Positions 34,263-62,926 of a DNA stretch of 64,000 bases are shown one piece after another. Where the stretch lies: contig NZ_LT703001.1 in assembly GCF_900149705.1 (NCBI RefSeq), positions 2,722,001-2,786,000 on the forward strand. The letters run 5' to 3'. The first letter of the stretch is position 1. Every line of letters begins with the position of its first letter. Below the pieces are notes generated by a model that saw only the letters and a program-made list of their open reading frames with translations, was not told the origin of the DNA and made no database searches. This DNA comes from Sphingorhabdus sp. Alg231-15 (lineage in GTDB: Bacteria > Pseudomonadota > Alphaproteobacteria > Sphingomonadales > Sphingomonadaceae). The translations under genes and the position numbers were made by a program.

Positions 34263-34263
34263 T

Positions 34264-34926: not shown

Positions 34927-34990
34927 ATTTGTTGGAGGGTTGGACTAGTCTTAGTTGCAGTACGAACAGTTTCTGCTTGACGGAGCGATT

Positions 34991-35000: not shown

Positions 35001-35030
35001 TAGAAGTGCAATAGGGAGATTTGTCAACCT

Positions 35031-40820: not shown

Positions 40821-40864
40821 TATCTTGATAGTCCTATCCTCTTCTTAGGTATCTTTGATTTCGT

Positions 40865-44674: not shown

Positions 44675-45288
44675 TGATTGGCTCCTAGGTAAATCCATGG
44701 TCGCTTTGCACGGTCAGCCGCTTGCCAACTGGCAATGTCCTCGGCCATTTTTAAACTGAGGTCGATCGCGTCCAGCCCCTCCAGCAACATTGCCTTGGCT
44801 TCGTCGTCAATCGGGAAGGACCAGCTCTGTTCATTGTCGATGCTGATCTTCTGCGTTGGCAAGTCGATGGTAACGGTACGGTCGGCTTTTGCCATCATCG
44901 CAATGGCATCCGCATTAATCACGGCTGGCAATATGCCGTTGCGGACACAATTGCCCGCAAAAATCGGAGCGAAACTTGGGGCGATGACCGCGCGAAATCC
45001 ATATTCCGCCAAAGCCCAGACGGCATGCTCGCGGCTCGACCCACAACCGAAATTTGCGCCGCCAAGGATGATCTGGCTGTTTGCATAGTCGGGATCATTC
45101 AGAACGAAAGTGGCGTCGGCTTCGCGACCGCCGATGCTTGTATAGCGCCATCCAGCAAACAGACCATCAGCAAGACCTGTCTTGCCGGTGCTTTTCATCT
45201 CTCGTGAGGGGATGATCTGGTCCGTGTCGATATTATCGCGCATCAGCGGCATCGCCAGCGAGGTAAGGGAGGTGAACGGTTCTGCCAT
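44671..45288 (-). CDS. LeuD-like small subunit of an aconitase-family hydro-lyase
   Basis: 205 residues with DNIDTDQIIPSREM, the swivel-domain signature, and GGANFGCGSSREHAVWAL, which carries the substrate-binding Ser/Arg loop. It would pair with the LeuC-like protein as isopropylmalate isomerase, citraconate hydratase or dimethylmaleate hydratase. ATG at 45288 shares a base with the LeuC-like stop (TGATG); a GTG at 45291 is an alternative. Absence of leuA/leuB and presence of CoA transferase and lyase argue for a catabolic role. Confidence 0.85.
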   Translation of the reverse strand: MAEPFTSLTSLAMPLMRDNIDTDQIIPSREMKSTGKTGLADGLFAGWRYTSIGGREADATFVLNDPDYANSQIILGGANFGCGSSREHAVWALAEYGFRAVIAPSFAPIFAGNCVRNGILPAVINADAIAMMAKADRTVTIDLPTQKISIDNEQSWSFPIDDEAKAMLLEGLDAIDLSLKMAEDIASWQAADRAKRPWIYLGANQ

Positions 45289-46688
45289 CACAATAGCTCC
45301 CGGACATCGGAAATCGCTCCGGCCAGCGCACTAGCGACAACCGTTTCCGGGCTCGCAATATGGGTTTTGACGCCCGGCCCCTGACGACTTTCAAAATTGC
45401 GGTTGGTCGTTGATATGACCCGCGATCCGGCATCAAAACTCTCGCCGCCAGCATAGAAGCACATCGAGCAACCGCTTTCCCGCCATTCAAACCCGGCATC
45501 GCGGAAAATCACGTCTATCCCTTCCGCTTCCGCTTCGCGTTTGACGCGGGAAGAGCCCGGGACGCAGATGGCTTTGATCTGATTGGCAATTTTTTTGCCT
45601 TTCAGTAATGCGCTGGCTCGCCGCAGATCGGACAGGCGGCTGTTGGTGCAGCTTCCAATGAAGGCGGCGTCAATTGGTGTTCCGGCAAGGCCTTGCCCCT
45701 TTTGCAATGCCATATAATCGAGCGGTTGCTGGCTTGCGTCGTCCGGGATAGACCCACTTATACTGATGCTGTGTTCTGGACTGGTTCCCCAACTTACCAT
45801 TGGAGTTATGTCACCGGCATCGATTTCAATATCGGTGTCGAAAACAGCGTTTGTGCCACTTGTCAGTTTTTTCCAATGCTCAACTGCCTGCTTCCAATCT
45901 GAACCCTTCGGCGCATAATGACGATCCTCAAGATATGCGAAAGTTTTGACATCAGGAGCAATAAACCCGGACATTGCGGAAAATTCCGTGGCCATATTAC
46001 ACAGGGTCATCCGTCCTTCCATATCCAGTGCCCGAACAGCGTCTCCGGCAAATTCGACCGCGTGCCCCTTGCCACCGGCAGCGCCATGCCGGGCGATCAA
46101 GGTCATGATCATGTCCTTGGGCGTGACGCCTTTTGATAGTGCGCCAGAAAACCGAACCCGCATGGACTTTGGCTTGTTCAATCGCAGCGTTCCGGTTGTC
46201 ATCGCATGTTCTGCTTCCGACGAGCCGATTCCCCATGCGAGCGCTCCAAAGGCGCCTTGGGTGCACGTATGGCTATCGGGCGCCACCAATGTACAACCTG
46301 GTAACACGATCCCCATTTCCGGTGAAATCACGTGGACAATGCCTTGATCGGGATCGTTTACATCAAACAAGGTAATCCCAGCGGCTTTCGTGGCAGCTCT
46401 AGTCTCGGTAATGAACGCCTGCCCTCCAGGCATAAGGGTCCTATCTGTCCGCCCCGACCGCGTGTCGACAATATGGTCAGTAACGGCAAAGACACGCGCA
46501 GGGTCGGCTACTGTCCGCCCCGCTTCCGCCAGCGCGTTCAATGCGGACGCGCCGGTGCGCTCGTGCAGAAACACCCGATCAATCGCCAGCAATGCGCCCC
46601 CGCCTGGCAAGGCGGAGATCACATGGCTATCCCATAATGCATCAAACAGGGTGGATGGTTCAGGCAGAAGCAGCCTCCATTTCCGCAT
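45288..46688 (-). CDS. LeuC-like large subunit of an aconitase-family hydro-lyase
   Basis: About 466 residues. The 4Fe-4S cysteines appear in FIGSCTNSR and in SGCSMCFYAG; the substrate site DSHTCTQGAFGALAWGIGSSE is intact. Start choice is uncertain: ATG at 46688 gives an N-terminus overlapping the previous gene by 29 nt, whereas a CTG at 46665-46667 lies 6 nt after GGAGG and would give the usual LeuC start just before TLFDALWDSHVI. Function with the LeuD-like protein: reversible (de)hydration of a branched diacid. Confidence 0.85.
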   Translation of the reverse strand: MRKWRLLLPEPSTLFDALWDSHVISALPGGGALLAIDRVFLHERTGASALNALAEAGRTVADPARVFAVTDHIVDTRSGRTDRTLMPGGQAFITETRAATKAAGITLFDVNDPDQGIVHVISPEMGIVLPGCTLVAPDSHTCTQGAFGALAWGIGSSEAEHAMTTGTLRLNKPKSMRVRFSGALSKGVTPKDMIMTLIARHGAAGGKGHAVEFAGDAVRALDMEGRMTLCNMATEFSAMSGFIAPDVKTFAYLEDRHYAPKGSDWKQAVEHWKKLTSGTNAVFDTDIEIDAGDITPMVSWGTSPEHSISISGSIPDDASQQPLDYMALQKGQGLAGTPIDAAFIGSCTNSRLSDLRRASALLKGKKIANQIKAICVPGSSRVKREAEAEGIDVIFRDAGFEWRESGCSMCFYAGGESFDAGSRVISTTNRNFESRQGPGVKTHIASPETVVASALAGAISDVRELL

Positions 46689-47160
46689 CAACACCGCGCC
46701 AGTCCTTGGTCACAAAAGTCTCCTGTATCGCGGTCCGCGTTTCCAACAAGCCGTTTCTAATCCAGTGCCATGTTCGGCAACGATTCTGGCCCTCGTCGGA
46801 AATCTGGATCTGTTCATAGAGATAAAGCGATGGATCGCCTTGCCGCTGCCAATATAGCATCACAGTGCGATTATATTCGTCCAGCGGCACTTCTGCAGCC
46901 CAGCCCTTGATCAGGTCATTGTCCCACCATACGCGTTTGTCTCGATATTCTGCTGGAAACTCACGTATCTCTGTTTTGCCATCAGCCCATGTATAATGGT
47001 TGGTCTGATGATAAGGTATATCACCGTCGTCCGGGAATCGACAAAGCAGGCGAGAGGCATGCTCGTCAATTTTCTCATTCTGCGCATTGAAATAGGTGTA
47101 GGTACCATTCCAGACGCCTTCGTGGCGGGCCAAAAGCGGCATGTCTTCTCTGATTCCCAT
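46660..47160 (-). CDS. DUF3598-like beta-barrel protein
   Basis: 166 residues. HEGVWNGTYTYFNAQNEKID near the N-terminus and YWQRQGDPSLYLYEQIQIS resemble the lipocalin/fatty-acid-binding-like DUF3598 group; I am moderately sure. No catalytic motif seen. Start and previous stop share one base (TAATG), and its 3' end overlaps the LeuC-like gene. Possibly a binding protein for a pathway intermediate. Confidence 0.6.
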   Translation of the reverse strand: MGIREDMPLLARHEGVWNGTYTYFNAQNEKIDEHASRLLCRFPDDGDIPYHQTNHYTWADGKTEIREFPAEYRDKRVWWDNDLIKGWAAEVPLDEYNRTVMLYWQRQGDPSLYLYEQIQISDEGQNRCRTWHWIRNGLLETRTAIQETFVTKDWRGVDAEMEAASA

Positions 47161-48539
47161 TAGTTTTCCTTTTGTCTTGATTGGAGGGCAATATGATATT
47201 GTCTGGCGCTGTGACCGTTGATCAAGGCAAGATGCTCTGCGGCCAGATTTCCAGGCTCTAGATGCTGTTCATCGAAAGCAACCGCGTGATCGGTATCGAC
47301 CGTGTACCAAGGCGCAAACATATGACGAGCACGCACAATCTGCCATGCCATGTTAAGATAATTACCGAAGCGATCAGGCGACAGATCGGGATAAAGTTTC
47401 TCTGGTTCGCCGATGGGTAGCGTGGGATAGACGATCTCACTGGTGCCAAGGGAACCGGCGACGGCAGCGATGACCGCATCCCAGGAAGCCCAGGTTACAG
47501 GCGTATCATCGGCCCAATTGTCTGACAGGCCGTGGCCAGGCAGATCAATGGCAATCTGTCCTGCTGGTTGGTTGCCCGCCACAGCATAGGATGGGGCGTG
47601 CAAGTCAAGCTTGTCGCCAGTGCGATCACCGCGCCAGTGGATCAGGCCGTCAAAACCCTTTGTGTGGATCGCCACAAAGCCTTCATCACTGGCCTCAGGC
47701 AAATGATCAACCATTGGCGTTTCTGTGACGAGCAGATGAGAGAGACTGACCGCCTGATGATCTGCTGGTGTCGCAACTTTTTGTGCGTTCCAGCTGGCAG
47801 GCATCTGTCCCAGACGATCGATATGCTCCTGCAAAGGATCACCATCATATGCGCTGATCAGGCAAGGCGGGACATCGGCGTCCACGGCTGGAATATCACG
47901 CGGCGCGCGCAGTACGGCGCCATAGCCGGCTTGATAAGCATTACCGGCATCAAGCATTTCCCGGACAATCGCATCGACCCGAGCGGGGTCATCATTGGCA
48001 ACGGAAAGCCGATGGGCATCATCAGTTGCAAACCATGGGAAGAACCAGCTTTGTTCCAGAATGCGGTTCCACAACCATGTCAGATGTTCACCATAATCGG
48101 AGGGGTGAAACTCGGGTAAATAGCGATCACTGAAAAGCGCCATTTCTTCGGGCGTCCAGATTGCATAGCCGCCAACCGCCAGGGTCGTGATTCGACTCGG
48201 ATGACGCTTGACCGCCGTTACCAAAATGATTCCACCGGAATGGAAACCATAAGCTGCACATTTTTTTATGCCCAGCGCGTCAAGAAAATCGATAACTGCA
48301 TCTGCATATTCGACGATTTCTGGATGACCTGAGAGCGGATCAGATTGACCAAAACCCGGCGTATCAGGGGCAATGCAGGTGAAATGTGCTGCCCATTTTT
48401 CCATTAGTGCTTCATATTCTTTCGAGCTGCGTGGGCTTTGATGCACCATCAACAGCGGAGGGCCACTACCGGCCTTGCGATAATGGACGCGGCGTATGTT
48501 GCCGCTATGGTCAATGTCTATAAAGTGGCGTGTGATCAT
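47160..48539 (-). CDS. Alpha/beta hydrolase with a second, degenerate hydrolase-like half
   Basis: 459 residues from the ATG at 48539; the frame extends to 48560 only by running through the operator. The first half is a standard alpha/beta hydrolase: oxyanion region MVHQSPRSSKEYE, IAPDTPGFGQSD, nucleophile elbow YGFHSGG. The second half repeats parts of it: IAIDLPGHGLSD, then SPDRFGNYLNMAWQI aligning with HPSDYGEHLTWLWNRI, then FAPWYTVDTDH with FFPWFATDDAH. No nucleophile elbow is left in this half. First gene of the long leftward operon; NicD-like amide or ester hydrolysis is possible. Confidence 0.8.
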   Translation of the reverse strand: MITRHFIDIDHSGNIRRVHYRKAGSGPPLLMVHQSPRSSKEYEALMEKWAAHFTCIAPDTPGFGQSDPLSGHPEIVEYADAVIDFLDALGIKKCAAYGFHSGGIILVTAVKRHPSRITTLAVGGYAIWTPEEMALFSDRYLPEFHPSDYGEHLTWLWNRILEQSWFFPWFATDDAHRLSVANDDPARVDAIVREMLDAGNAYQAGYGAVLRAPRDIPAVDADVPPCLISAYDGDPLQEHIDRLGQMPASWNAQKVATPADHQAVSLSHLLVTETPMVDHLPEASDEGFVAIHTKGFDGLIHWRGDRTGDKLDLHAPSYAVAGNQPAGQIAIDLPGHGLSDNWADDTPVTWASWDAVIAAVAGSLGTSEIVYPTLPIGEPEKLYPDLSPDRFGNYLNMAWQIVRARHMFAPWYTVDTDHAVAFDEQHLEPGNLAAEHLALINGHSARQYHIALQSRQKEN

Positions 48540-48545: not shown

Positions 48546-48574
48546 AATTTGTCCGGACAAATTTGTCTCGACAA
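48546..48574. promoter_or_regulatory. 18-bp palindromic operator plus adjacent half-conserved copy
   Basis: AATTTGTCCGGACAAATT (48546-48563) is a perfect 18-bp palindrome 7 bp before the hydrolase start. TTGTCTCGACAA (48563-48574) follows with the same TTGT..ACAA arms but an imperfect centre, 14 bp centre to centre. The same 18-mer recurs at 55788-55805. It lies between two large divergent operons, so the regulator probably controls both. Confidence 0.78.
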
Positions 48575-48623
48575 GTCTTTTTTGCAGATTATTGTATTTT
48601 TATCGAATCCGGAGAGAGATATT

Positions 48624-49304
48624 ATGACGCTTGTCGGCACAAAAATGGTTTCTGATAGCCGCACGGCGCGGGAGATCTTTGAAGAAGTCATTGGTAACCC
48701 CGCACGAAAGAAATTCGGTTTCGGCGATAAGCTCGCCATCGTCAATGTCGATGTCCAGCAATCTTATACGCGGACCGACATGTTCAAGACGGCCTATGAG
48801 ACCGATCCGAATCAGATTGATTATATTAACCGGATTTCGTCCCTGGCGCGGGCCAAAGGCATGCCGGTCATCTGGAGCCGAGTGGCCTATAAGGACGACG
48901 CTGCAGATGCTGGAGTCTGGGGCACGCGAACGGATACCGAAGATTCGCTGCAGAATATCAAATATGACAGCGAGCGACATCTGCTTGATCCGCGCTGCGA
49001 AGTGGACGCCGATGATCTGGAATATACCAAGCGCATGCCCAGTGCCTTTTTTGAAACGCCGCTTGCGAGCTATTTGACCTGGCATAAAGTCGATACAGTT
49101 GTTGTGACAGGTGGCTCCACATCTGGCTGTGTACGGGCCACAGCGGTGGATGCGCTGAGCCACGGGTATCGCACGATCGTCCCGATCGAAACCTGCGCAG
49201 ACAAGCATGAAAGCTATCATTTCGCCAACCTGACCGACTTGCAGTTGAAATATGCCGATGTGGAACCGGTACAAACCGTGATTGACTGGCTGGAGGCGCG
49301 CTAG
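48624..49304 (+). CDS. Isochorismatase-family cysteine amidohydrolase, second copy
   Basis: 226 residues from the ATG at 48624, with GGAGAGAG about 6 nt upstream. Triad: D43 (IVNVDVQQSY), K136 (YTKRMPSAFF) and C169 (GGSTSGCVRATA). It resembles N-carbamoylsarcosine amidase / maleamate amidohydrolase. It is the first gene of a seven-gene rightward operon with overlaps throughout, followed by two deacetylase-like genes. A half-amidase acting after ring opening is a fair inference. Confidence 0.86.
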   Translation: MTLVGTKMVSDSRTAREIFEEVIGNPARKKFGFGDKLAIVNVDVQQSYTRTDMFKTAYETDPNQIDYINRISSLARAKGMPVIWSRVAYKDDAADAGVWGTRTDTEDSLQNIKYDSERHLLDPRCEVDADDLEYTKRMPSAFFETPLASYLTWHKVDTVVVTGGSTSGCVRATAVDALSHGYRTIVPIETCADKHESYHFANLTDLQLKYADVEPVQTVIDWLEAR

Positions 49305-50197
49305 TGTCCGAAGTACAGAAATCCGATCCAGGGTTATATGACTATCTGCCCTATCGTGGCCGCCCGAAAATCGAATGGCCGGATGGTAAGACCTGCGCGG
49401 TCTGGGTAGCGCCCAATCTCGAGTTTTATGAACTGGACCCGGCAGTGAATCCTCATCGGAAAAGCTGGCCAAAGCCGCATCCCGACGTGGTCGGTTATAG
49501 CCATCGTGATCATGCCAATCGCGTGTCCCATTGGCGCATGGCGGAGATGATGACTAAGCATGGCTTTCCGGGATCGGTGAGCTTATCGGTGGCGCTGTGT
49601 GACCATATTCCTGAAGTTGTTGAAGATGCTAGCCAGCGTGGCTGGGAGTTTTTCAGCCACGGTATTTACAATACGCGCTACTCTTATGGCATGGATGAAG
49701 CCCAGGAACGTGCAATTATTGAGGACTCGATCACAACTGTGGAGCGCGCCACAGGTCAGCGGATTCGAGGGTGGCTGGCTCCGGCGCTGACCCATACGCC
49801 TCGTACGCTCGATCTGCTCGCCGAATATGGATTGGATTATACCTGCGACCTTTATCATGATGACCAGCCGACCGATGTGAAGGTGAAATCCGGCCAGCTG
49901 ACTGCCATTCCTTACAGCTTGGAGGTCAATGATCATTACGGCTTCTTCATCTACAATATGTCGCCGCGGGAATATGCCGATACGCTGATCCGTCAATATA
50001 ACAGACTGGCCGCAGAAGGCATACAATCGGGAACTGTGATGTGCATACCGTTGCACAGCTATTTAATTGGTCAGCCCCACCGCATTGGTCCGTTTGAAGA
50101 GGTTCTTGAGCATATCGCCGCTGATGGACGGGCATGGATCACCAAAGCCGGCGATATAGTGGACTGTTTCCGGAAGCAGACGGGAGGTGCCTTATGA
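49304..50197 (+). CDS. Polysaccharide-deacetylase-fold, allantoinase (PuuE)-like hydrolase
   Basis: 297 residues from a GTG that shares a base with the previous TAG. NodB-type fold: WVAPNLEFYELDP, metal-binding His in FFSHGIYNTRYSYGMDEAQE, GWLAPALTHTPRTLDLL, and a late His in CIPLHSYLIGQPHR. The layout fits cofactor-independent allantoinase PuuE and cyclic-amide hydrolases rather than sugar deacetylases, and no sugar genes are nearby. A homologous gene follows directly. Confidence 0.83.
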   Translation: MSEVQKSDPGLYDYLPYRGRPKIEWPDGKTCAVWVAPNLEFYELDPAVNPHRKSWPKPHPDVVGYSHRDHANRVSHWRMAEMMTKHGFPGSVSLSVALCDHIPEVVEDASQRGWEFFSHGIYNTRYSYGMDEAQERAIIEDSITTVERATGQRIRGWLAPALTHTPRTLDLLAEYGLDYTCDLYHDDQPTDVKVKSGQLTAIPYSLEVNDHYGFFIYNMSPREYADTLIRQYNRLAAEGIQSGTVMCIPLHSYLIGQPHRIGPFEEVLEHIAADGRAWITKAGDIVDCFRKQTGGAL

Positions 50198-51117
50198 GCC
50201 TTGACCCCAGCTATCTGGACTATCCCAAACGCGGCCGCGGGATGGATCATGACTATTATCCCTATAGCAGCTTGTTTGATCGCAAACCGTTGCAGTGGCC
50301 CGATGGCAAAAAACTGCTCATCTGGCCTGTCATCAGCCTGGAATATTTTCCGATGGTACCGAACGATGACCCATTCCGGGCGCCAGGACACATGCAGACG
50401 GCTTATCCCGATTATCGCCATTATACTGCGCGGGAATATGGCACGCGGATTGGAATCTACCGGTTGCTAGATGCGTTTGAAAAGGTTGGTGCAACGGTTT
50501 CGGTAGCGGCCAACAGCGTCATTGCTGATCGTTACCCACAGTTAATTGAGGAAATTATCGCCAGTGGTCATGAAATCATCGCGCATAGTATAGACATGAA
50601 CGGCACAATTGCTAGCGGTATGGATGAAGCGGATGAGAAGGCCTTGATCGAGGACACGCTTTCAACGCTCGAAAGAACAATCGGAAAGCGGCCACGTGGG
50701 TGGTTGTCGATAGCGCGTTCGCAGAGCTTTAACACCGCAAAATTTCTTGCCGAGGCAGGCGTTGAGTATATGTGTGACTGGGCCAATGACGAATTGCCTT
50801 ATGGGTTCCAGACCGACGGTGGAGCGATCACCAATATCCCGCTCAATCATGAACTTTCAGACCGCCACATTATCAACGTCCAGCAGCAATCGGTTGATAG
50901 CTATGCGCAGCAGATGCACGATGCTGCTGATTGGTTGCTGAAGGAAACCGAACAATATGGTGGTCGGATGCTGCCGATGCATTTGACACCTTATATCATG
51001 GGATTGCCTTATCGTATCAGCAGTTTTGAGACTTTGATCGCGGATTTTGCCAAGCACAAGAATATTGGGTTCGCTCGAGGTGATACGGTACTTGACAGCT
51101 GGAAGGCGCAGCAATGA
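50194..51117 (+). CDS. Polysaccharide-deacetylase-fold, allantoinase-like hydrolase, second copy
   Basis: 307 residues from the ATG at 50194 (GGGAGG upstream, ATGA overlap). It parallels the previous protein: PDGKKLLIWPVISLEYF, HEIIAHSIDMNGTIASGMDEAD, RGWLSIARSQSFNT, and LPMHLTPYIMGLPYR. The two may form a heteromer or act on related substrates. Probable role: opening of a cyclic amide or imide; this is inferred from the PuuE-like fold and the amidase next to it. Confidence 0.83.
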   Translation: MSLDPSYLDYPKRGRGMDHDYYPYSSLFDRKPLQWPDGKKLLIWPVISLEYFPMVPNDDPFRAPGHMQTAYPDYRHYTAREYGTRIGIYRLLDAFEKVGATVSVAANSVIADRYPQLIEEIIASGHEIIAHSIDMNGTIASGMDEADEKALIEDTLSTLERTIGKRPRGWLSIARSQSFNTAKFLAEAGVEYMCDWANDELPYGFQTDGGAITNIPLNHELSDRHIINVQQQSVDSYAQQMHDAADWLLKETEQYGGRMLPMHLTPYIMGLPYRISSFETLIADFAKHKNIGFARGDTVLDSWKAQQ

Positions 51118-52535
51118 AGATACGCAATCCGCGCTCCGGCCAAGCAGATTACGAGATCGCACCGTTTAGCAGCAAGGCAGTGGAAGAAGAGGCGAACCGA
51201 TTGCGCGGAGCGCAAAGTGATTGGGCGACTAAAAAGCCTGAAGAGCGCGGCGCGATATTGCTGCAATGGGCGGATGCGATAGAAGCTGATCTTAGTGCTA
51301 TCATTCCGGCCCTCACGGCGGACACAGGACGCGGCGGAATTTCGAAAATTGAGGCGGCTGGAGTGCCGGGGCAAATTAGGCGATGGGCGACCATGGCACC
51401 GCAACTGATTGCTGAAGGACAACCCGTCGAGCAACCAACATCGGTGCCGAAAATTACCACATCGACACGATTAGTGCCTTATCAATTGGTCGGGGTTATC
51501 AGCCCGTGGAATTTCCCGATGACTCTCGCGTTGATCGATGCGATTCCAGCGTTAATGGCGGGATCAGCCGTGCTGGTTAAACCGTCCGAAGTGACCCCGC
51601 GCTTTATCAAACCGCTAATGGAAACCGTGCGGAAAATCCCGGAATTGGCTGCTGTGCTGTCAATTATCGAAGGCGATGGCGCAACGGGTTCGGCAATGGT
51701 CGATCAGGTCGACTATATTTGCTTCACTGGATCGGTAGCCACCGGGCGTAAGGTAGGCGAGGCGGCCGCAAAATCATTTATCCCCGCAAGCCTGGAATTG
51801 GGGGGTAAAGATCCAATGATCATTCTTGCCAGTGCCAATCCAGAAAAGGCGGCTGCCACAGCTCTCAGAGCCAGTATTGTCAATACGGGTCAGGCCTGCC
51901 AGTCGATCGAGCGAGTCTATGTGGCGCGGGAGATTGCGGAACCGTTTCTCGCCAGTCTGACCGCTCAAGCGGAGGCGGTCCGGCTTAACCACCCTGATAT
52001 CAATCAAGGACATATCGGCCCGTTTATCTTTGAAAAACAAGCGAAGATTGCACAGAGTCAGATTGATGATGCGATCCAAAAAGGCGCGAAACTGATCACC
52101 GGCGGAACGGTCGAGAATCTCGGCGGCGGGCTGTATCTCAGGCCGACCATACTCACCGACGTCTCGCCGGATTCCGTCATCATCTGCGAGGAAAATTTCG
52201 GGCCCGTTATCCCGGTCGTCATCTATGATCAGATTGAACAGGCGATTGCGCAGGCGAATGACAGTATCTTCGGATTATCTGCTGCGGTTGTTGGCGGATC
52301 GGTGACAGAGGCGGAACAGATAGCTGTGCGTCTGAAAGCAGGCGCGGTGTCGATTAATGACGGTTCGCTGACGTCGATGGTCTGGGAAGCCGAAAAATCG
52401 AGCTTCGGCTACTCGGGCCTTGGTGCATCGCGGATGGGTGCCAGCGGATTGATGCGCTTTTTCCGCAAGCAGGCGCTGATCCGGCAATCAGGTGAAGCGG
52501 CGCGGATAGAGGCTTTTGCAGAGGAGAATTTCTGA
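51114..52535 (+). CDS. Aldehyde dehydrogenase family protein
   Basis: 473 residues. LVGVISPWNFPMTLALIDAIPAL, the nucleotide region FTGSVATGRKVGEAA, catalytic Glu in LELGGKDPMI and catalytic Cys in NTGQACQSIERVYV are all present. It should oxidise an aldehyde intermediate with NAD(P)+. Start overlaps the previous stop by 4 nt; the next gene overlaps by 1 nt. Confidence 0.9.
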   Translation: MKIRNPRSGQADYEIAPFSSKAVEEEANRLRGAQSDWATKKPEERGAILLQWADAIEADLSAIIPALTADTGRGGISKIEAAGVPGQIRRWATMAPQLIAEGQPVEQPTSVPKITTSTRLVPYQLVGVISPWNFPMTLALIDAIPALMAGSAVLVKPSEVTPRFIKPLMETVRKIPELAAVLSIIEGDGATGSAMVDQVDYICFTGSVATGRKVGEAAAKSFIPASLELGGKDPMIILASANPEKAAATALRASIVNTGQACQSIERVYVAREIAEPFLASLTAQAEAVRLNHPDINQGHIGPFIFEKQAKIAQSQIDDAIQKGAKLITGGTVENLGGGLYLRPTILTDVSPDSVIICEENFGPVIPVVIYDQIEQAIAQANDSIFGLSAAVVGGSVTEAEQIAVRLKAGAVSINDGSLTSMVWEAEKSSFGYSGLGASRMGASGLMRFFRKQALIRQSGEAARIEAFAEENF

Positions 52536-53722
52536 TGGGCGTGGAATTACAGCATCCGATGAAACCGGAACTAACCGCCGAGGAAGCGGCGCGCGGACGA
52601 TTTGTTTCGGGTATCAGGGCGTTTATCCTCAATGATCTCGCCGGCGATTTGCGCACCGCTTATGACAAGCGGGCCGCTCCTGCCTTTGCCCGTGAGCAGG
52701 GCCGCGCGCCGAAAACTAGCAATGAAGCGCATCAGGCACTGCGCGGCGACCCGGCGTTCAATATCTATTCGGCCATGCGGGTACAGGCGCAAAAAATGGT
52801 CTGGCATGCTTCCGGCAATGTGGTCGCGCGCGATCTCGAACGGTTGGAGGCGGAAGCGGAAAATGTTGCTGACCGGCCCGGTTCGGTGAAACTGAACCCT
52901 AGTCTCGACATCCCGCGCAATGTCGATGCGATCGAAGTGCATTTGATGCCGGGCAGCTATACGCGCGGCGGTGAAACGCTAGAGGCTGGAGCGGTCTATG
53001 ATCAAGGTCTGGCTGTGTTTTCCATGGGCCTAATGGGTGCCAATCTTGATGATATCGGCCTGTCCATGGCTGCTTATGTGAAGGGTAAGTTTCCGGACTT
53101 CAACCCGCAGAGCATTCTCGATACGGGCTGTACCATCGGTCACAATACTTTGCCGTGGAAACAGACCTATCCTGACGCGAAGGTCGAAGCGATTGACGCA
53201 GCGGCTGGCGGCCTGCGCTATGCTTCCGCGCGGGCCAAAATGCAGGGGCAGGACGTTCATTTCACCCAAATGTCGGCCGATGCGCTCGACTATCCCGACG
53301 CCAGTTTTGGCCTCGTCTTTTCTTCGATGTTTCTCCATGAACTATCGAAAAAGGCACGGGCGGCGGCGTTTAAGGAAGCGTACCGGGTTCTCAAACCCGG
53401 CGGTTTGTTGCTTCATATGGAGTTACCGCCCAATGACCAGATGAATGCCTTTGACGGCTTTTATCTCGATTGGGACAGCTGGTATAATTCGGAACCTTTC
53501 TACAAAGGCTATCGCGACGAAAGCCCGTCGGAATTGTGCCAGGTAGGCGGCTTTGGTGCAGACGACTATTTCCAGTTCGTTGTGCCAAGCATCGGCATCT
53601 ATGGCGAGGAAGCGGTCGCGCAAGCTATAGCGGATGAGACTGCCAATGCGGTTGATAGCGAAACCACCGGGCGGCTAGCCGAAGGTATCATGTGGTTTGG
53701 ATTTGGAGCCTGGAAAAGATGA
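52535..53722 (+). CDS. Class I SAM-dependent methyltransferase with extra N-terminal domain (copy 1)
   Basis: 395 residues. An unrecognised N-terminal domain (1-190) contains HLMPGSY at 136-142. A Rossmann methyltransferase domain follows with a variant motif I, DTGCTIGHN (196-204), acidic residue in EAIDAAAGG, and RVLKPGGLLLHME. The last Gly of the usual GxGxG is kept, but the middle one is replaced. A paralogue is at 57451-58725 and shares MPGSY, the N-terminal domain and the TxGHN motif. It is coupled (4-nt overlap) to a small partner gene in both places. Confidence 0.85.
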   Translation: MGVELQHPMKPELTAEEAARGRFVSGIRAFILNDLAGDLRTAYDKRAAPAFAREQGRAPKTSNEAHQALRGDPAFNIYSAMRVQAQKMVWHASGNVVARDLERLEAEAENVADRPGSVKLNPSLDIPRNVDAIEVHLMPGSYTRGGETLEAGAVYDQGLAVFSMGLMGANLDDIGLSMAAYVKGKFPDFNPQSILDTGCTIGHNTLPWKQTYPDAKVEAIDAAAGGLRYASARAKMQGQDVHFTQMSADALDYPDASFGLVFSSMFLHELSKKARAAAFKEAYRVLKPGGLLLHMELPPNDQMNAFDGFYLDWDSWYNSEPFYKGYRDESPSELCQVGGFGADDYFQFVVPSIGIYGEEAVAQAIADETANAVDSETTGRLAEGIMWFGFGAWKR

Positions 53723-54000
53723 GTGGTGAGACCGCAAATCCCGGTCCGGCATTCAAACCTGACGATACGCCGAAGGAAATTTACGGCCCGGATGGCAAGC
53801 CGCAGTTTTTCGATGATCCCGGCATGGATCGTTTTGTAGCGGTGGCAATGAACATGGCACAGGAAATGTGGGTGCAGGAAGAGCGATTAATGGCGCTCGA
53901 AGGATTAAAAGCATCGGAAGCGGATCGCGAAGCAAAGCTGAAAGAGTTTATCGACCGCATTTTTGCGCCACTGCGCGAACAAGGGAGTGATGACGCATGA
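53719..54000 (+). CDS. Small helical partner of the methyltransferase (copy 1)
   Basis: 93 residues from the ATG at 53719 (ATGA overlap with the methyltransferase stop). PQFFDDPGMDRFVAVAMNMA is followed by a helical stretch ending in a Lys/Glu-rich tail, probably a coiled coil (about 36-85). The protein at 57092-57454 has the corresponding FDDP..(D/E)R pattern and also accompanies a methyltransferase. I know no family name; a small regulatory or structural subunit is the simplest idea. Confidence 0.72.
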   Translation: MSGETANPGPAFKPDDTPKEIYGPDGKPQFFDDPGMDRFVAVAMNMAQEMWVQEERLMALEGLKASEADREAKLKEFIDRIFAPLREQGSDDA

Positions 54001-55016
54001 AGGCATGGCAAATCGGATCCAGAACCGGCATTGGCGGGTTGCAGCTTGCCGACCATCCCGATCCGGAACCCGGGCCGGATGAGGTTCTGGTCAAAGTCAC
54101 TGCCGCCGGTCTCAACTATCGCGACCTGATGGTGCTGCGCGGCGATTATGGGACAGATTTGCCCGAAGATCGCGTGCCTTTGTCCGACGGCGTCGGCGTG
54201 ATCGAAGCTGTCGGCGCTGAGGTTACCGGACTGGATGTCGGCATGCGCGTGATGGCGCCGCATTTTGCCACTTGGTTGAATGGAGCCTATAGTTTTGCCG
54301 TATTTGGCAGGGACCTCGGCGTAACTGCCAATGGCTGGCTCGCCGAGAAAATCATTCTTCCTGCAAATGCCGCTATCGTGGTGCCGGAAAATGTCAGTGA
54401 CAGCAGCGCGGCGACCTTCTCGGTCGTCGGCAGCACCGTTTGGCATGCGATGATGGCTTTTGGAGACGCCAAGCCGGGTGATCTTGTGCTCGCACAGGGA
54501 ACCGGCGGGGTGTCGATATTCACCCTGCAGTTGGCCAAAGCGATGGGCATGGATTTTGCGATCACGTCATCGAGTGACGAAAAACTGGCGCGTGCAAAAG
54601 AAATGGGTGCCGATTACGGCATCAACTATCGCGATCGGCCGGATTGGGGGGCGGCATTGCTGGAAGCCACCGGAGGTCGCGGTGCAGATGTGGTTGTCGA
54701 TACACTAGGCTTTCCGGCGCTGGGTGAAACCGTCGAGGCATGCGGCGTCAATGCGCGCATCGGATCCTTGGGCGCGCTGTCTGGAACACCGCAGGACCAG
54801 TCCAGCGCCAGTCAAGGAGCGCTTATTGGCAAGAATATAGCGATCAAGGGCATCGCGTCCGGCAACCGTGAAATGCTGCAACAGGCGCTGGATGTGGTCG
54901 CGCAAAATAATATCGAACTGCTGGTTGAAAGCGTGTTCGATTTCGATGATGCACCAGCGGCCTTCACTCATCTCGAAAGCGGCAGCCATATGGGCAAGGT
55001 GATGATTACCGTTTAA
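53997..55016 (+). CDS. Quinone-oxidoreductase / zinc-type alcohol dehydrogenase family (MDR) protein
   Basis: 339 residues. GroES-like N-domain with AAGLNYRDLMVLRGDYG, VMAPHFATW, and a nucleotide-binding GTGGVSIFTLQLAKAMG. The usual catalytic-zinc Cys/His set is absent, which fits the zinc-free NAD(P)H quinone/enone reductase branch of the MDR superfamily. It is the last gene of the rightward operon that begins at 48624. Its 3' end overlaps the convergent gene by 11 bp. Confidence 0.85.
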   Translation: MKAWQIGSRTGIGGLQLADHPDPEPGPDEVLVKVTAAGLNYRDLMVLRGDYGTDLPEDRVPLSDGVGVIEAVGAEVTGLDVGMRVMAPHFATWLNGAYSFAVFGRDLGVTANGWLAEKIILPANAAIVVPENVSDSSAATFSVVGSTVWHAMMAFGDAKPGDLVLAQGTGGVSIFTLQLAKAMGMDFAITSSSDEKLARAKEMGADYGINYRDRPDWGAALLEATGGRGADVVVDTLGFPALGETVEACGVNARIGSLGALSGTPQDQSSASQGALIGKNIAIKGIASGNREMLQQALDVVAQNNIELLVESVFDFDDAPAAFTHLESGSHMGKVMITV

Positions 55017-55734
55017 GTTCGACCAGCTCGTACCAGGTCATCATATAACCGCCAACGCCGCCCTGTACGAATATGCCATCGTCATCATCGGTAATCCACA
55101 CATCATAGGCGGGATGTTCGCCCGCCATTCCGCCGGTACCTGGCACGATACTGGCATCATCAATAAATTGCAGATGTTTGCACTGGAAGGTACCGGCGGG
55201 CACGGTGACTTCTTCCTTGCCGATATAGACAGCCCCGATTTTAACCTGCGCAATTTGCGGCGGCGTCGCACCGCGATGATCGGGGGAGGGCAGGTAGCAG
55301 TTCAGTAAGCGTTTGGTTTCTTTGTCCCAATCCTTCGTCGAGAGCATATAACCGTCTGAAACAATCGGATGGGTGCCAAAACCGTCGAGCGGCAATTCGG
55401 CCGCGACACGCTGAGACAGGCGTCCGATTGAGGGGCCATAGGATTCCATCTCGACATGCGATCCGTCAAACCGCATCCAGCCTGATCCCATAAATGCATC
55501 ACCGACTGTCAGCCGGACATGACAATCCATCGGCTGCTTATGCTCGTCCATAGCGTAAATGATATCGCGCATCACCGTTGGCTCTGGCTCGTAAATCTCA
55601 CAATGCGCCCGCATCGTGACCTTGCCGTCGCTATGATGGGTGAACATGAAGGTTTCGAAACCACGATTTTGGCCCTCCATTTCCGGTTTACGCGACGTAT
55701 ATTCCAGACGGCCTTCGATAATGCGGTGCTTCAT
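55006..55734 (-). CDS. Hypothetical beta-rich protein
   Basis: 242 residues, no signal peptide and no membrane segment. Alternating hydrophobic strands (HCEIYEPEPTVMRDIIY, CHVRLTVGDAFMGSGWMRFDG, CKHLQFIDDAS) suggest a two-domain beta barrel. I do not recognise a catalytic motif. It is a single gene whose start is 54 bp from the 18-bp palindrome at 55788-55805, so it should share control with module B. Confidence 0.6.
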   Translation of the reverse strand: MKHRIIEGRLEYTSRKPEMEGQNRGFETFMFTHHSDGKVTMRAHCEIYEPEPTVMRDIIYAMDEHKQPMDCHVRLTVGDAFMGSGWMRFDGSHVEMESYGPSIGRLSQRVAAELPLDGFGTHPIVSDGYMLSTKDWDKETKRLLNCYLPSPDHRGATPPQIAQVKIGAVYIGKEEVTVPAGTFQCKHLQFIDDASIVPGTGGMAGEHPAYDVWITDDDDGIFVQGGVGGYMMTWYELVELKR

Positions 55735-55787
55735 GCCTATTCTCCTCGCTTTTCTTCATGCCAGTGCATTTTTCTCTTGCCAAGAGG

Positions 55788-55805
55788 AATTTGTCCGGAC
55801 AAATT
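55788..55805. promoter_or_regulatory. 18-bp palindromic operator, second exact copy
   Basis: AATTTGTCCGGACAAATT, identical over all 18 bases to the site at 48546-48563. It lies in the 109-bp gap between divergent genes starting at 55734 and 55844, the right place for an operator or activator site serving both. Confidence 0.82.
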
Positions 55806-55843: not shown

Positions 55844-56536
55844 ATGGAATTTCTCACAACAAATGAACTGAGCATTTTGCGATGGATACACATCCTGGCG
55901 ATGGTTTACTGGCTGGGCGGTGAATGGGGTGTTTTCCAGACCAGCTATAATGTCACAAATCGCAATCTGTCGCTGGAAGAACGGCGTCGGCATATGGAAA
56001 CAGCCTATCGGATCGACATATTGGCGCGCACCGGCATTGTTCTATTGCTTCCGCTCGGTCTGCATATGGGCAAGCTATATGGTTTTGTGCCTTCGCTCGA
56101 TGGTCCGGGAATCTGGTGGATGTGGCTGTTTTTTGCGATCTGGCTGGCAATGACCTGGACCGCGTTTATCAAGCGTGAAACCGATATCGGTGTCAAGGTG
56201 ACTAAAATCGAGGAGATGCTCCGCTATCCTCTCATCGCTATCCTGTTTATCGTCACCTTCATGGCGCTGGAAGGCAGCGGACCGATTACCTCCGGGGAGG
56301 GCAATCACTGGTATCCTGCGAAAATTGGTCTTTATGCCTTTGCCCTGTGTATCGGTCTGTTCCTGCGCGTGGTCATGCGCCGCTGGACCGTACGGTTTCG
56401 AAAATTGGCAGAGGGGCCAGATGCAGCCGAAGAAAATGCGCTAGAACGGGAAATCGGACAAGCGCGGATCGCCGCTTATATCTATTGGATCACGATTGCC
56501 GGCGTGTGTTTTCTGGGGGCCGTCAAGCCGTTCTGA
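55844..56536 (+). CDS. Polytopic inner-membrane protein, DUF2214/CopD-like
   Basis: 230 residues with about six hydrophobic segments. LRWIHILAMVYWLGGEWGVF at the start (His and Trp in the first helix) recalls the haem-binding-like CopD/DUF2214 membrane families; I am not certain. GGGAGGA lies 8 nt upstream of the ATG at 55844. It is followed 22 nt later by the VOC gene and is divergent from the gene at 55734 across the operator. Confidence 0.65.
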   Translation: MEFLTTNELSILRWIHILAMVYWLGGEWGVFQTSYNVTNRNLSLEERRRHMETAYRIDILARTGIVLLLPLGLHMGKLYGFVPSLDGPGIWWMWLFFAIWLAMTWTAFIKRETDIGVKVTKIEEMLRYPLIAILFIVTFMALEGSGPITSGEGNHWYPAKIGLYAFALCIGLFLRVVMRRWTVRFRKLAEGPDAAEENALEREIGQARIAAYIYWITIAGVCFLGAVKPF

Positions 56537-56558
56537 TCATTGGTTTGGAGGGCTTATT

Positions 56559-57095
56559 GTGCGCAAATACCGTCAATTGATCATATCGTTGGTCGCGGCT
56601 TTTCTGGTTTCGGCCTCACCTGTTCAAGCGGAAACGTCGGGTACCGCCCGGTTTGATCGGGCTTCGTTGATCGTTAAGGACATGGAGCAATCACTTCTGT
56701 TCTGGCGTGACGTGATGCAATTTGACCTGCTTTTCGAGCCGCGGCAATTACCGCCGCTTGAGAACGAATATCTGGGTTGGACAAAGAATGCCGTGCTGAC
56801 ATTTGCTCGTCTGCAATCTCCGGACGGTGCGGGCATCGGTCTAATGGAAATCAAGCAACCCGGATTTCCCGATCTGGAATTGGAAAAGTACCCTAATGCT
56901 CATGGCAGCGTGATTTTTGTGCATGTCGCAAAAGATATAGAAGCGCTGCATAATCGCGCACTTGCAGCAGGGACTGTGCTGAAACCATTGGGATTGTCCC
57001 GCTCCGGAAGATCCAGGCAAATGTACTTGCGATCCCCAAGCGGTCATGTGTTGGAGATTTATGAGCTGCTGCCGACTGAGGAAAAACCGAATTAA
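56559..57095 (+). CDS. Exported VOC-superfamily (glyoxalase-like) protein
   Basis: 178 residues from a GTG at 56559 with GGAGGG 8 nt upstream. A signal peptide (about 1-24, ending SPVQA) precedes a VOC domain: FDRASLIVKDMEQSLLFWRDV and the closing YLRSPSGHVLEIYEL, which supplies a metal Glu. VOC proteins are glyoxalases, dioxygenases or binding proteins; export to the periplasm is unusual for the family. Its stop overlaps the convergent gene by 4 bp. Confidence 0.75.
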   Translation: MRKYRQLIISLVAAFLVSASPVQAETSGTARFDRASLIVKDMEQSLLFWRDVMQFDLLFEPRQLPPLENEYLGWTKNAVLTFARLQSPDGAGIGLMEIKQPGFPDLELEKYPNAHGSVIFVHVAKDIEALHNRALAAGTVLKPLGLSRSGRSRQMYLRSPSGHVLEIYELLPTEEKPN

Positions 57096-57454
57096 ATCTC
57101 CTTCAGCTCCCGACTGACCTCTTCAACCGGCGGTTCCGCCTGTTGCAATTCCTCCACCATCTGGTGGGGTCCGCGCATCACCCGGTAGATATATTCACGG
57201 ATCATCGCACCGCGCTCATAGGCTGCCTGCTTGTCGGGTGTGTAACTCTCAATGTCATCGCGGCTGATTGTGCCCTTGGCATCGAGCAGCCTTTCGACCG
57301 TATCCATGCGTTCGCGCAATACGGACACTTCGCCGACCACAGCCATCAGGATTGAGAGCATCCGTTCATCCTCGGGATCGTCAAAATATTCCGGGCGCTT
57401 GCCCTTGGCCTTTTTATTCGCCGCAGCCATCCAGTCGAAAGGGGTATCGGTCAT
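57092..57454 (-). CDS. Small helical partner of the methyltransferase (copy 2)
   Basis: 120 residues from the ATG at 57454, overlapping the methyltransferase stop (ATGA). RPEYFDDPEDERMLSILMAV followed by VLRERMDTVERLLDAKG parallels PQFFDDPGMDRFVAVAMNMA and its helix in copy 1. The C-terminal third (about 75-120) is extra. A helical or coiled-coil subunit is likely; function unknown. Confidence 0.72.
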   Translation of the reverse strand: MTDTPFDWMAAANKKAKGKRPEYFDDPEDERMLSILMAVVGEVSVLRERMDTVERLLDAKGTISRDDIESYTPDKQAAYERGAMIREYIYRVMRGPHQMVEELQQAEPPVEEVSRELKEI

Positions 57455-58725
57455 TCCGCAGCCTCCTGAATCTGGTCGGCGTTTTTCCACGCTCCATAAG
57501 CATGCCAGTAAGCCGCGCGGCCATGATCTTCATCCGCCCCGGTTGGTGCCTCTGGGAAAATTTCCTTATCCACAACCGCTCGGACACCCGTTTCGAAAAG
57601 CTCTTCGCGATCAAAACCAGCCGTGACCATCTCGTCTTTCATATCCAGCGCATGCATGGAGGACCAGAACGGCTCATTGTTATTAAACGCATCCCAGTCA
57701 CGCAGGAACTGCTCAAATAATGGCATGGCATCGGAATATTCCGGCTGTTCTAGGTGAAGCATCAAGCCATTGTTGGCGAGTACCCGGTACCCCTCGGCGA
57801 TAATTTTCGGCAACGCCTTGCCGCTGGTTTCATGTAGGAACATCGTGGTCTGTACCCAGTCAAATGTTCCATCATCCCAGCGGGTCAGATCCTCTGCATT
57901 GGCTTGAATGAACCTGATATTGATCGCACCGAGCGATTGCGCGCGGGCGTGGGCATAGCGCAATATCGGCGCGGCGGTGTCGATCGCGATAAATTCGCAA
58001 TCGGGAAAAGCGAGTGCCAGCGGCACGATATTATGGCCGACAGTGGTGCCGATATCGAGCATCCGTCGTGGCTGCCAGCCAGGGCGTTCTTTTTTGATCC
58101 AGTCGACGAGGGCTTGGCCTCCGCCGTCCGAAAGCGCGCCAAGTCCGCCTGCTGTGGTTGCAAAGATACCGCAATCATAATTGGCACCGGCCGATATATC
58201 GCCGGACAGCTCTTCACCATGATAGCTGCCGGGCATGCAGTGGATATCGACGGCGCTTTGGTAGCGCGGCACTTCAATTTCCGGATGTAGCTCCAGCGTG
58301 TCGCGACCCTCATTAAACTGCCGTGCTTTGGCATTGAGTTCACCAATCTGGCGCAGCACCATAGACCGGCCATTTTGCTGGCGCATTTCCATCGAGTTGC
58401 GCTTGAGCGCGGACCAAAATTTGTGGAACGAATCGTCGTTCATCGCGCGGCGGATTTCAAACCGGTCCTGCGGTTCCCGGCCATGCTCTTTCAGAAAGGC
58501 CGGCAGGACGCGTCTGTCATAGGCCAACTGGTTTCCCGGGCCCAGGGTGCCAGAAAGGAATTTGTTGAAATTGGCGAGGAAGTCAAAGCGCGCCACTTCG
58601 TCATGCGACGGTGTCGGGGATACGCCGTGACGTGCCACTGCATTATAGGGCGGCGCGACGTCCAACTTCTGATCGGCCAACTTCTGGTCAGCCAACTTCT
58701 GGTCAGGCGGTGTGCTGCTGCTCAT
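57451..58725 (-). CDS. Class I SAM-dependent methyltransferase with extra N-terminal domain (copy 2)
   Basis: 424 residues. The N-terminus has three tandem DQKLA-type repeats (8-22), then the same N-terminal domain as copy 1 with HCMPGSY (162-168), variant motif I DIGTTVGHN (224-232), FIAIDTA and RVLANNGLMLHLEQ. It overlaps the upstream nitrilase-like gene and the downstream small partner by 4 nt each. Sequence divergence from copy 1 is large, so this is an old duplication or separate acquisition, and the substrates probably differ. Confidence 0.83.
   Translation of the reverse strand: MSSSTPPDQKLADQKLADQKLDVAPPYNAVARHGVSPTPSHDEVARFDFLANFNKFLSGTLGPGNQLAYDRRVLPAFLKEHGREPQDRFEIRRAMNDDSFHKFWSALKRNSMEMRQQNGRSMVLRQIGELNAKARQFNEGRDTLELHPEIEVPRYQSAVDIHCMPGSYHGEELSGDISAGANYDCGIFATTAGGLGALSDGGGQALVDWIKKERPGWQPRRMLDIGTTVGHNIVPLALAFPDCEFIAIDTAAPILRYAHARAQSLGAINIRFIQANAEDLTRWDDGTFDWVQTTMFLHETSGKALPKIIAEGYRVLANNGLMLHLEQPEYSDAMPLFEQFLRDWDAFNNNEPFWSSMHALDMKDEMVTAGFDREELFETGVRAVVDKEIFPEAPTGADEDHGRAAYWHAYGAWKNADQIQEAAE
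58662..58706. repeat. Three tandem 15-bp repeats inside the methyltransferase N-terminus
   Basis: Units at 58662-58676, 58677-58691 and 58692-58706 (CCAACTTCTGGTCAG, the first differing at two bases) encode the DQKLA repeats on the minus strand. Copy number could change without a frameshift. Confidence 0.88.
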
Positions 58726-59876
58726 ATCAAGCCCTCCTTTATCATGCGCTCTATCGTTTCTTCCTGTGTGCGCAGGAAATAATCGCGATCAGGGGTCTTA
58801 AGTTCATTGACCTCGATCAAACCATTGGCTTTTTGTACGGACAAATTACCATAAGTGGCGGCAAAAAGCTCCAGTCGCTGGCGCGCAAGGAAATTGGTCA
58901 TGGCCGGTTTGCGCCGCGCCGCGCGTAAGGCACCGACATCGATATCGGCAAAGGCGGTGAAAGTCTCGCCGCTGTTCGATTCTGCCATCACCCGACCCTT
59001 ATAGTCGACGACCATGCTGTTGCCGTCGGCCGAGGCCAGGGGCAGGGTCGTGTTTTCAATGCCAGCGGTGTTGGCAGACACGACATAGGCCATATTTTCC
59101 TGCGCCCGCGCGCGCTTGCCGATATCCTTGGGCGTGTCGAGCGGGGAACCGATTTCCGAAGAGCTATGCACGAAAATCTCGGCGCCGCGCAGCGCATGGG
59201 CGCGGGCGATTTCGGGATAGAGAATCTCTTCCGATGCAATGGCGGCAAGATTGCCAATCTCGGTCCTGGCCACCGGAAACACCCCGTCGAGGCCATAAAT
59301 ATCAAGATATTTCGTCCAGACATCATGCGGCGTTGGCGCGAACATGGAATTCAGCCGGCGATAGCGCAGCACCACGTCCCCGGACGGCGCGACCACGAAA
59401 CTGGTCTGAAAATAGATGCTGGGAAAATTCGTATCCAATTCGTAAGCATTACCGGCAATGAACATCTTTAGTCGCTGCGCCATCGCGCCCAGTGCTTCAT
59501 ATTCCGGGCCATCCACTTCCAACGCCGCCTTATCGGCAAAATCGGGAATGGAAATGCGCCCCGGATAGCTGGTCAGCAGATATTCGGGCAGCACCGCCAG
59601 CTTGACAGGGTTGCCGGCATATTGCTGAATGAAAATCATCGCGGAACGGATCTTCGTCTCGATCTCACTGATCATCGCCAGCATTTGCGCGCGGGCAGCG
59701 GCCTTGTCCGGTGTCTTTTCAATTGAACGCGCGGCCAATTGCATCGCGACGGCGGCGTAATTTTTGGTTTCGATCATAATGTTATCTTTATCATTCTTTC
59801 CGGTCGCGGCAAAAGCAGGCGGTGTGACAGTGGCACAGAGTGCTGCGGCCATCATCTGTCTGCGGTCAAAATCCAT
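58722..59876 (-). CDS. Nitrilase-superfamily (carbon-nitrogen hydrolase) protein with altered triad, exported
   Basis: 384 residues. RRQMMAAALCATVTPPAFA at the start looks like a Tat-type signal. Nitrilase fold landmarks: E98 in VLPEYLL, the Lys position reads Arg (VVLRYRRLN, about 171-175), and the Cys position reads Ser215 in IASEEILYPE. Glu-Lys-Cys is thus Glu-Arg-Ser, so ordinary amidase or nitrilase chemistry is doubtful. It lies between an FAD-linked oxidase gene and the second methyltransferase gene in one leftward operon. Confidence 0.75.
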   Translation of the reverse strand: MDFDRRQMMAAALCATVTPPAFAATGKNDKDNIMIETKNYAAVAMQLAARSIEKTPDKAAARAQMLAMISEIETKIRSAMIFIQQYAGNPVKLAVLPEYLLTSYPGRISIPDFADKAALEVDGPEYEALGAMAQRLKMFIAGNAYELDTNFPSIYFQTSFVVAPSGDVVLRYRRLNSMFAPTPHDVWTKYLDIYGLDGVFPVARTEIGNLAAIASEEILYPEIARAHALRGAEIFVHSSSEIGSPLDTPKDIGKRARAQENMAYVVSANTAGIENTTLPLASADGNSMVVDYKGRVMAESNSGETFTAFADIDVGALRAARRKPAMTNFLARQRLELFAATYGNLSVQKANGLIEVNELKTPDRDYFLRTQEETIERMIKEGLI

Positions 59877-59888
59877 CTTGGCTTCACT

Positions 59889-62746: not shown

Positions 62747-62856
62747 TGCGCGATTGTGCCTCTCCGATGAATGACAGGCAAGATATGATTGCTCCGGACA
62801 TGTGCGCCGACATGATTTACGTGCATAGCACCCGGCCTATCGCCTGAAATTAAATA

Positions 62857-62894
62857 TTCCGCTGGCACCGGGCTTGCGCACGGTGCCAGCGGAA
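62857..62894 (-). terminator. Strong hairpin terminator of the TonB receptor gene
   Basis: TTCCGCTGGCACCG (62857-62870) pairs perfectly with CGGTGCCAGCGGAA (62881-62894): a 14-bp stem with a 10-base loop, followed on the minus strand by TATTTAATTT. It begins 32 bp after the receptor stop and insulates the MFS promoter. Confidence 0.8.
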
Positions 62895-62926
62895 AAGGAT
62901 ATTTGGGACCTTGCTTCCTTTTGCCG

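Follow-up and report, generated by a model that had tools for sequence, protein, structure and literature searches.

The closest described relatives of the system reported here are regulators of the HutC subfamily, namely NagR (YvoA), DasR with its dre-sites, HutC and PhnF. NagR and DasR have a GntR winged helix, a UTRA domain and palindromic GT-N4-AC sites, and passages on operators in PMC4494728 give this spacing as the usual one of the subfamily. In the NagR-DNA crystals, as presented in passages of PMC4333415, Arg48 reads G-4, Arg38 reads G-5 and the wing residue Gly69 touches the minor groove. We analyzed a stretch of 64,000 nucleotides of Sphingorhabdus sp. Alg231-15 (positions 2722001-2786000 on contig 1 of a 3.62 Mb genome), which is called the window below and in which the 18-bp palindrome AATTTGTCCGGACAAATT occurs twice. 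The palindrome is very likely the operator of a GntR/HutC-type (UTRA-domain) factor, probably a repressor, encoded in the same catabolic cluster. The evidence computed consists of the site positions, their confinement to the cluster, the co-occurrence with the regulator, sites upstream of gntR in distant genomes and the matching contact positions in protein and DNA.

Copies of the palindrome in the window and the genome

Direct matching placed both exact copies (O1 and O2, Table 1) between divergent genes, in agreement with the preliminary description of this DNA. That description also held that the repeat was very unlikely to be due to chance, which is borne out: the window has three matches to the 18-mer at 0 to 3 mismatches, the mean of shuffled sequences is 0.03 and none of 100 shuffles reached three. 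At the same mismatch level 14 places were found in the whole genome (one with the reversed pattern, which served as control in the searches). Thirteen of them are located within 53,150 bp (2770546 to 2823696) in one catabolic cluster that also encodes the candidate regulator, and the remaining one is at 424885. A post-hoc anchored binomial gives 2e-20 for this confinement. The cluster sites extend about 38 kb beyond the window end. The shorter core TTGTCYRGACAA has 11 matches in the genome, all but one in the cluster (reversed control 2). This core was used because a search with TTGTCNNGACAA and one mismatch (140 forward, control 109) omitted several zero-mismatch sites; those counts are incomplete and were not used. 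The predicted operator form is TTGTC-N2-GACAA; its centre is mostly CCGG, and at some sites the two middle bases are TG or CA.

With gene starts as judged likely, 12 of the 13 cluster sites are intergenic, in ten intergenic regions, and the copy at 58830 is intragenic. Mechanically called longest frames overrun some sites, O1 included. It had been proposed that the two exact copies control some 17 genes. Our operon reading gives about 18, and to that extent the estimate stands; the regulon is much larger, with 13 sites over 53 kb.

An operator role would, according to the preliminary description, be refuted by numerous copies spread through coding regions. Such a spread is absent from the genome of the window and is present in a relative, G105, where 95 copies of the core TGTCCGGACA were counted (none of the reversed control) and 18 of the 21 longer matches examined fall inside mechanical open reading frames. 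The G105 copies look like a genome-wide over-represented palindrome, apart from operators. They lend some color to the idea that the palindrome is a structural or repeat element (an RNA hairpin, a mobile repeat or a genome-wide motif) with no operator function. We regard this as extremely improbable here: the longer matches in the genome of the window are almost confined to one cluster, and in an alignment of the O1 junction the flanks agree with the majority base at 46 to 54% while the 18 bases are intact, although this intactness is not independent since the 25 rows (the window and 24 public loci) were chosen for the exact 18-mer.

The candidate regulator and its DNA contacts

The preliminary description placed both promoters under one regulator whose gene lies outside the window. 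This is supported by a GntR/UTRA protein gene in the cluster (Table 1). Its product scores 60.9 bits against PF00392 (GntR, N-terminal winged helix; cut-off 27) and 55.7 bits against PF07702 (UTRA, C-terminal; cut-off 23.8). It reaches the cut-off of none of the NCBIfam models shown. Judged from its domains and its distribution, the GntR/UTRA protein is very probably the regulator that binds the palindrome. The palindrome has the GT-N4-AC spacing of the HutC subfamily (TTGT-CCGG-ACAA) and, numbered as in NagR, G at -4 and T at -5. We aligned 64 sequences, 40 from gntR loci and 24 from other loci, the latter including second homologs that are possibly paralogs. Arg is found at the NagR Arg48 position in 64 of 64 sequences and at the Arg38 position in one, and Gly is found at the Gly69 position in 63. 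The likeness to NagR and DasR includes the equivalents of Arg48 and the wing glycine. Unlike the dre-type operator with G-5 G-4, the palindrome has T at -5, and the Arg38 equivalent is Ser. The overall similarity is remote (E 1e-14 to NagR and 1e-8 to DasR). No N-acetylglucosamine genes were recognized among the genes scanned.

HutC (TIGR02018) is the best-scoring NCBIfam model and has the same domain order. Identity as the HutC equivalog (histidine utilization) was rejected at 93.1 bits against a cut-off of 220; the published HutC operator centre MTAK is unmatched here, and no histidine-utilization genes were recognized among the genes scanned. PhnF (TIGR02325) belongs to the same subfamily, and its operator has a GTC-N2-GAC core, the same as here. 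PhnF equivalog identity was likewise rejected (66.8 bits, cut-off 156.8), and phosphonate genes were not recognized among the genes scanned. No description of the palindrome regulon was found in the literature searched, which may not cover every paper; a search with a 12-mer returned one paper, unrelated by its title and the start of its abstract. PMC5343134 deals with HutC itself and with further regulons of proteobacteria; the palindrome regulon is absent from its passages on them.

Co-occurrence of the regulator and the palindrome

An ortholog of the GntR/UTRA protein at E<=1e-40 was found in 40 of 396 genomes of the order, the genome of the window included. The other 39 ortholog-bearing genomes contain 300 palindromes at 0 to 3 mismatches (range 1 to 28, median 8) and nine reversed ones. 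Nineteen listed family members without the ortholog have seven matches, one each in seven genomes (control 4). Contrasts are also seen within genera: in g4, G232 has 10 sites and G019 and G025 have one each; in g10, G203 has six and G065 none. Lowering the threshold to E<=1e-15 in 20 GntR-negative genomes detected a 31% homolog in one of them (G035).

The 40 gntR loci (760,954 bases) contain 103 matches at 0 to 3 mismatches, distributed over 36 loci, and no match to the reversed or a scrambled palindrome. Because the distances refer to the aligned portion of the protein, actual starts may be nearer to the sites. In 30 of the 40 loci a site is 5.4 to 5.8 kb from the aligned gntR start; in the genome of the window and in G128 this site heads an HpcH-MaoC-acyl-CoA dehydrogenase-CaiB-CaiB operon that is tail to tail with gntR. 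The gntR loci of G242 and G243 have their sites at other positions. Sites immediately upstream of gntR are found in G233 and G002 (58 to 92 bp), G014 (TTGTACGCACAA, 15 bp) and G385 (69 bp). G155 has a weak one with five mismatches 54 bp upstream, and in G238 a five-mismatch form is located between MmgE and gntR.

From 80 listed public loci (see below), 24 genomes were picked for lying outside the sphingomonads or being odd in title or content, and 18 of them have a GntR homolog at E<=1e-15. Sites are located 26 to 121 bp upstream of the homolog in G396, G397 and G408, and about 1.3 kb upstream in seven genomes (G401, G402, G403, G406, G407, G412 and G413). In the three read closely (G402, G403 and G407) the 1.3-kb site heads the gene preceding gntR. 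At 0 to 2 mismatches the six genomes without a homolog have one site in five cases and three in G415; four of the 18 with a homolog (G400, G410, G411 and G416) also have just one. Operators near gntR outside the sphingomonads frequently read AATATGTCCGGACAAATT, one arm carrying an A (L259, L262, L263, L266 and L270).

Several findings weigh against the GntR/UTRA protein as the regulator. In the genome of the window gntR has no upstream site and begins 26 bp from a divergently oriented gene. The congeneric G345 has no ortholog down to E 1e-15 and yet shows seven three-mismatch matches (control 0). G019, which is without the regulator, has the 10-base core six times (reversed 0). G293 and G355 have the ortholog, yet one and two genome matches, respectively, none near gntR; much of the cluster is gone in G293, and gntR is in a different context in G355. 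The search for other regulators covered part of the cluster genes by family scan; reading of 2764.5-2826 kb revealed none beyond GntR and a LysR protein.

The LysR protein (2787.6-2788.6 kb) has to be weighed as a binder, since about 90 bp separate the end of its gene from the site at 2787513, and so does a LuxR-type protein at 2832.6 kb. We consider it highly improbable that either one reads the palindrome. Of 59 genomes, 8 have the LysR protein at E<=1e-40 and each of these is GntR-positive, so that 31 of the 39 GntR-positive genomes, every one with palindrome matches, have them without LysR, and by this co-occurrence LysR was rejected. LysR boxes do not usually take the form of a compact 12-bp dyad. 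The LuxR gene is 9 kb outside the last site. No small unlisted regulator was seen, by reading, among leftover open reading frames of at least 60 amino acids in the gaps at 2764.5-2826 kb.

Site positions, promoters and the predicted mode of action

O1 ends 6 bp before the ATG (48539) at which the leftward gene is taken to begin (its longest frame, from TTG, overruns O1) and 60 bp from the rightward start codon. The corresponding distances for O2 are 53 bp to the left and 38 bp to the right, and those of the other regions are 13, 17, 19, 20, 24, 40, 47, 48 and 69 bp. Thus in all ten regions, with starts judged from the sequence of this genome, a site ends 6 to 69 bp before a start codon, which favors blocking of initiation or of the first elongation steps. 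Beyond these computed positions, we infer the binding itself, repression over activation, an effector and the membership of operons as follows. A dimer of the GntR/UTRA protein would bind TTGTC-N2-GACAA in ten intergenic regions across 53 kb. In its effector-free form it would most likely repress the adjoining operons by covering the promoter or transcription start, and it would be released when its UTRA domain binds a compound of the pathway.

Next to O1 an imperfect second copy of the palindrome had been described (Table 1). It is present in the sequence of the window; as a conserved second operator it was rejected, as its left half is kept in just 4 of the 25 rows of the O1 alignment. Its right half, CTCGACAA, is found three bases past the O1-type site in 22 of 25 rows and is followed, at a spacing of 16, by a TATNGT-like hexamer (T1 in 19, A2 in 18 and T6 in 18 of 23 rows). 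Across the species aligned, this pattern marks the second copy mainly as the rightward -35 element. Scans for sigma-70 promoters gave one match at O1 (shuffle mean 0.5) and none at O2 (shuffle mean 0.3). These numbers are near the shuffle means, and the predicted O1 promoter owes its credibility to its cross-species conservation. Transcription of the rightward operon is predicted to begin near 48602, and that of the leftward operon, as a leaderless transcript, at or close to 48540.

The -35/-10 pair beside O1, kept in most O1-type rows, bears on the sign of regulation, and here one arrangement counts against repression: O1 is just upstream of the rightward -35 and, by our reckoning, centred near -47, where an activator could bind. 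That the same GntR/HutC protein binds the site and activates the operons is nevertheless improbable. The 6 bp between O1 and the leftward start codon and the 13 to 24 bp at other sites fit blocking better, the title of PMC4918961 terms GntR/HutC proteins repressors, and NagR is described as blocking transcription in passages of PMC4333415.

Exact copies in public genomes

The exact 18-mer was scanned for in 84,980 species genomes and found in 111 stretches, 80 of which are listed and underlie the figures for public loci. For 18 bases and 257 billion bases of uniform composition about four exact copies would be expected by chance (an estimate). The listed loci were compared with 56 proteins of the cluster at E<=1e-25. 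At least one cluster homolog is present in 70 of 80 loci, and at least two with at least 35% identity in 63. In 63 of 80 loci the aligned start of a homolog follows at most 300 bp downstream of the site (18% for random positions), and in none is the site inside an aligned homolog (58% for random positions). The junction of hydrolase, site and isochorismatase-fold gene recurs, whole or one-sided, in up to 24 public loci, among which the hydrolase match of L165 is just 36% and the flanks of L137 have diverged.

Six of the ten listed loci without a homolog are titled Bacteroidota, Flavobacteriaceae, Faecalitalea, Oscillibacter or Clostridiales. Two others, L119 and L144, come from records holding the pathway elsewhere (L165 and L166). 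L131, titled as a Klebsiella pneumoniae metagenome-assembled genome (MAG), has the exact 18-mer and an acyl-CoA dehydrogenase homolog, and its genome (G400) has a GntR homolog. L111, titled as a Flavobacteriaceae MAG (G416), has the exact 18-mer and a GntR homolog on the same contig. These two contigs are perhaps misbinned or misnamed.

With these results a repeated string becomes a predicted regulatory unit: a consensus for the operator, a candidate for the regulator, and a large regulon that can be recognized through the operator in alpha-, beta- and gammaproteobacteria. Since the listed exact copies are mostly at these genes, the operator could be used to find a whole uncharacterized degradation pathway, including parts scattered on other contigs.

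Gene content and possible substrate

Cluster genes were named by family scans, and TonB receptors, major facilitator superfamily (MFS) carriers and some others by reading. There are TonB receptors, MFS carriers, PuuE-type hydrolases, and amidase and nitrilase-like enzymes. Further products are LeuCD-like and MaoC hydratases, an acyl-CoA dehydrogenase, CaiB CoA-transferases, HpcH/CitE- and HMG-CoA-lyase-like proteins, a PaaK-like ligase, a DUF1838 protein, two proteins of the MmgE/PrpD type, of which one was scanned, and several proteins without a Pfam match. The possible operon at 57092-64000 has a candidate site at 2787513 of contig 1, 1.5 kb beyond the window.

The itaconate enzymes RipB and RipC are the best-scoring models for the MaoC- and HpcH-like proteins of the regulon and recall the cleavage of C5 dicarboxylates. 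Equivalog identity was rejected for both (RipB 237.7 against a cut-off of 340, RipC 229.5 against 375 bits), which makes a substrate other than itaconate likely. Tentatively, and with more doubt than confidence, we suggest that the regulon serves N-heterocycles of the cyclic imide or lactam kind, e.g., substituted maleimides from chlorophyll, heme or bilin breakdown. The PuuE-type hydrolases would open the ring, and the isochorismatase-fold and other amidases would free ammonia. LeuCD-like hydratases, CoA-transferases and HpcH/HMG-CoA-lyase-like enzymes would then cut the dicarboxylic skeleton. PuuE-type enzymes beside amidases recall fungal nicotinate breakdown, in which, according to passages of PMC9304392, a PuuE-related cyclic imidase is followed by an amide hydrolase. 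Leaves contain mono- and dipyrrolic products of chlorophyll (PMC7318184). A tetrapyrrole-derived maleimide is a guess that fits the gene content and these two sources. The TonB receptors of sphingomonads may import a larger parent compound, and some other lineages may use TRAP carriers for a small acid: L269 has a TRAP carrier with a site upstream and L267 another TRAP protein farther from a site, which suggests a small acid there. The ligand of the regulator would point to the substrate.

Table 1. Sites, promoter and genes discussed (window numbering; names are predictions).
Feature	Position	Strand	Remarks
O1, predicted operator, perfect 18-bp palindrome	48546..48563	no strand	between leftward and rightward operons
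Imperfect second copy	48563..48574	no strand	right half CTCGACAA is the conserved part
Predicted promoter, rightward operon	48568..48595	+	TCGACA, 16-bp spacer, TATTGT; 1 found, shuffle mean 0.5
O2, predicted operator, 18-bp palindrome identical to O1	55788..55805	no strand	exact match; same junction in 10 public loci
Weak match, 3 mismatches, doubtful	58830..58847	no strand	inside nitrilase-like gene, about 105 bp upstream of the start of the next gene
GntR/UTRA (HutC-type) protein	74059..74838 (G000:C1:2796059-2796838)	-	in cluster, 10 kb beyond window end
FAD-dependent dehydrogenase and NmrA-like protein	39876..42484	-	names by reading; possible end of leftward operon, presumed members
CaiB-type (family III) CoA-transferase	42570..43745	-	below named cut-offs
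HMG-CoA-lyase-like protein	43742..44698	-	NF004283 281.3 bits, cut-off 246
LeuD-like hydratase small subunit	44671..45291	-	NF002458 228.8 bits, cut-off 167
LeuC-like hydratase large subunit	45288..46694	-	NF009116 651.6 bits, cut-off 531
Conserved nameless 166-aa protein	46660..47160	-	similar-sized protein at L016:3697-4197
Alpha/beta-hydrolase-family protein, first gene of leftward operon	47160..48539	-	ATG 6 bp from O1; family scan of 47160-48536
Isochorismatase-fold amidohydrolase	48624..49304	+	nearest solved structures: isochorismatase family, N-carbamoylsarcosine amidohydrolases
PuuE-type (polysaccharide-deacetylase fold) hydrolase 1	49304..50197	+	below PuuE equivalog cut-off
PuuE-type hydrolase 2	50194..51117	+	scanned as 50134-51117; below equivalog cut-off
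Aldehyde dehydrogenase	51114..52535	+	family scan
Methyltransferase-fold protein and small partner	52535..54000	+	sequence reading and family scan
Zinc-type alcohol dehydrogenase/quinone reductase family	53997..55016	+	family scan
242-aa protein, leftward from O2	55006..55734	-	no Pfam match (Pfam scan)
Membrane-type protein, rightward from O2	55838/55844..56536	+	no Pfam match (Pfam scan)
Glyoxalase-like protein	56496..57095	+	by reading
Small protein, methyltransferase-fold, nitrilase-like, FAD oxidase, MFS and TonB-receptor genes	57092..64000	-	possible operon, presumed members

A second catabolic block is located at 28142-35783 of the window (by reading, HyuA/HyuB-like, HMG-CoA-lyase-like, CaiB and racemase-like proteins). 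It has its own GntR/FCD regulator at 34264-34926, without a copy of the palindrome. The membrane-type protein at 55844-56536 has a look-alike at L016:4288-4974, which also has no Pfam match and has a site of its own; homologs of these two proteins adjoin the exact site in other genomes. Small proteins are encoded at 53692-54000 and 57092-57490, each adjoining a methyltransferase-fold gene.

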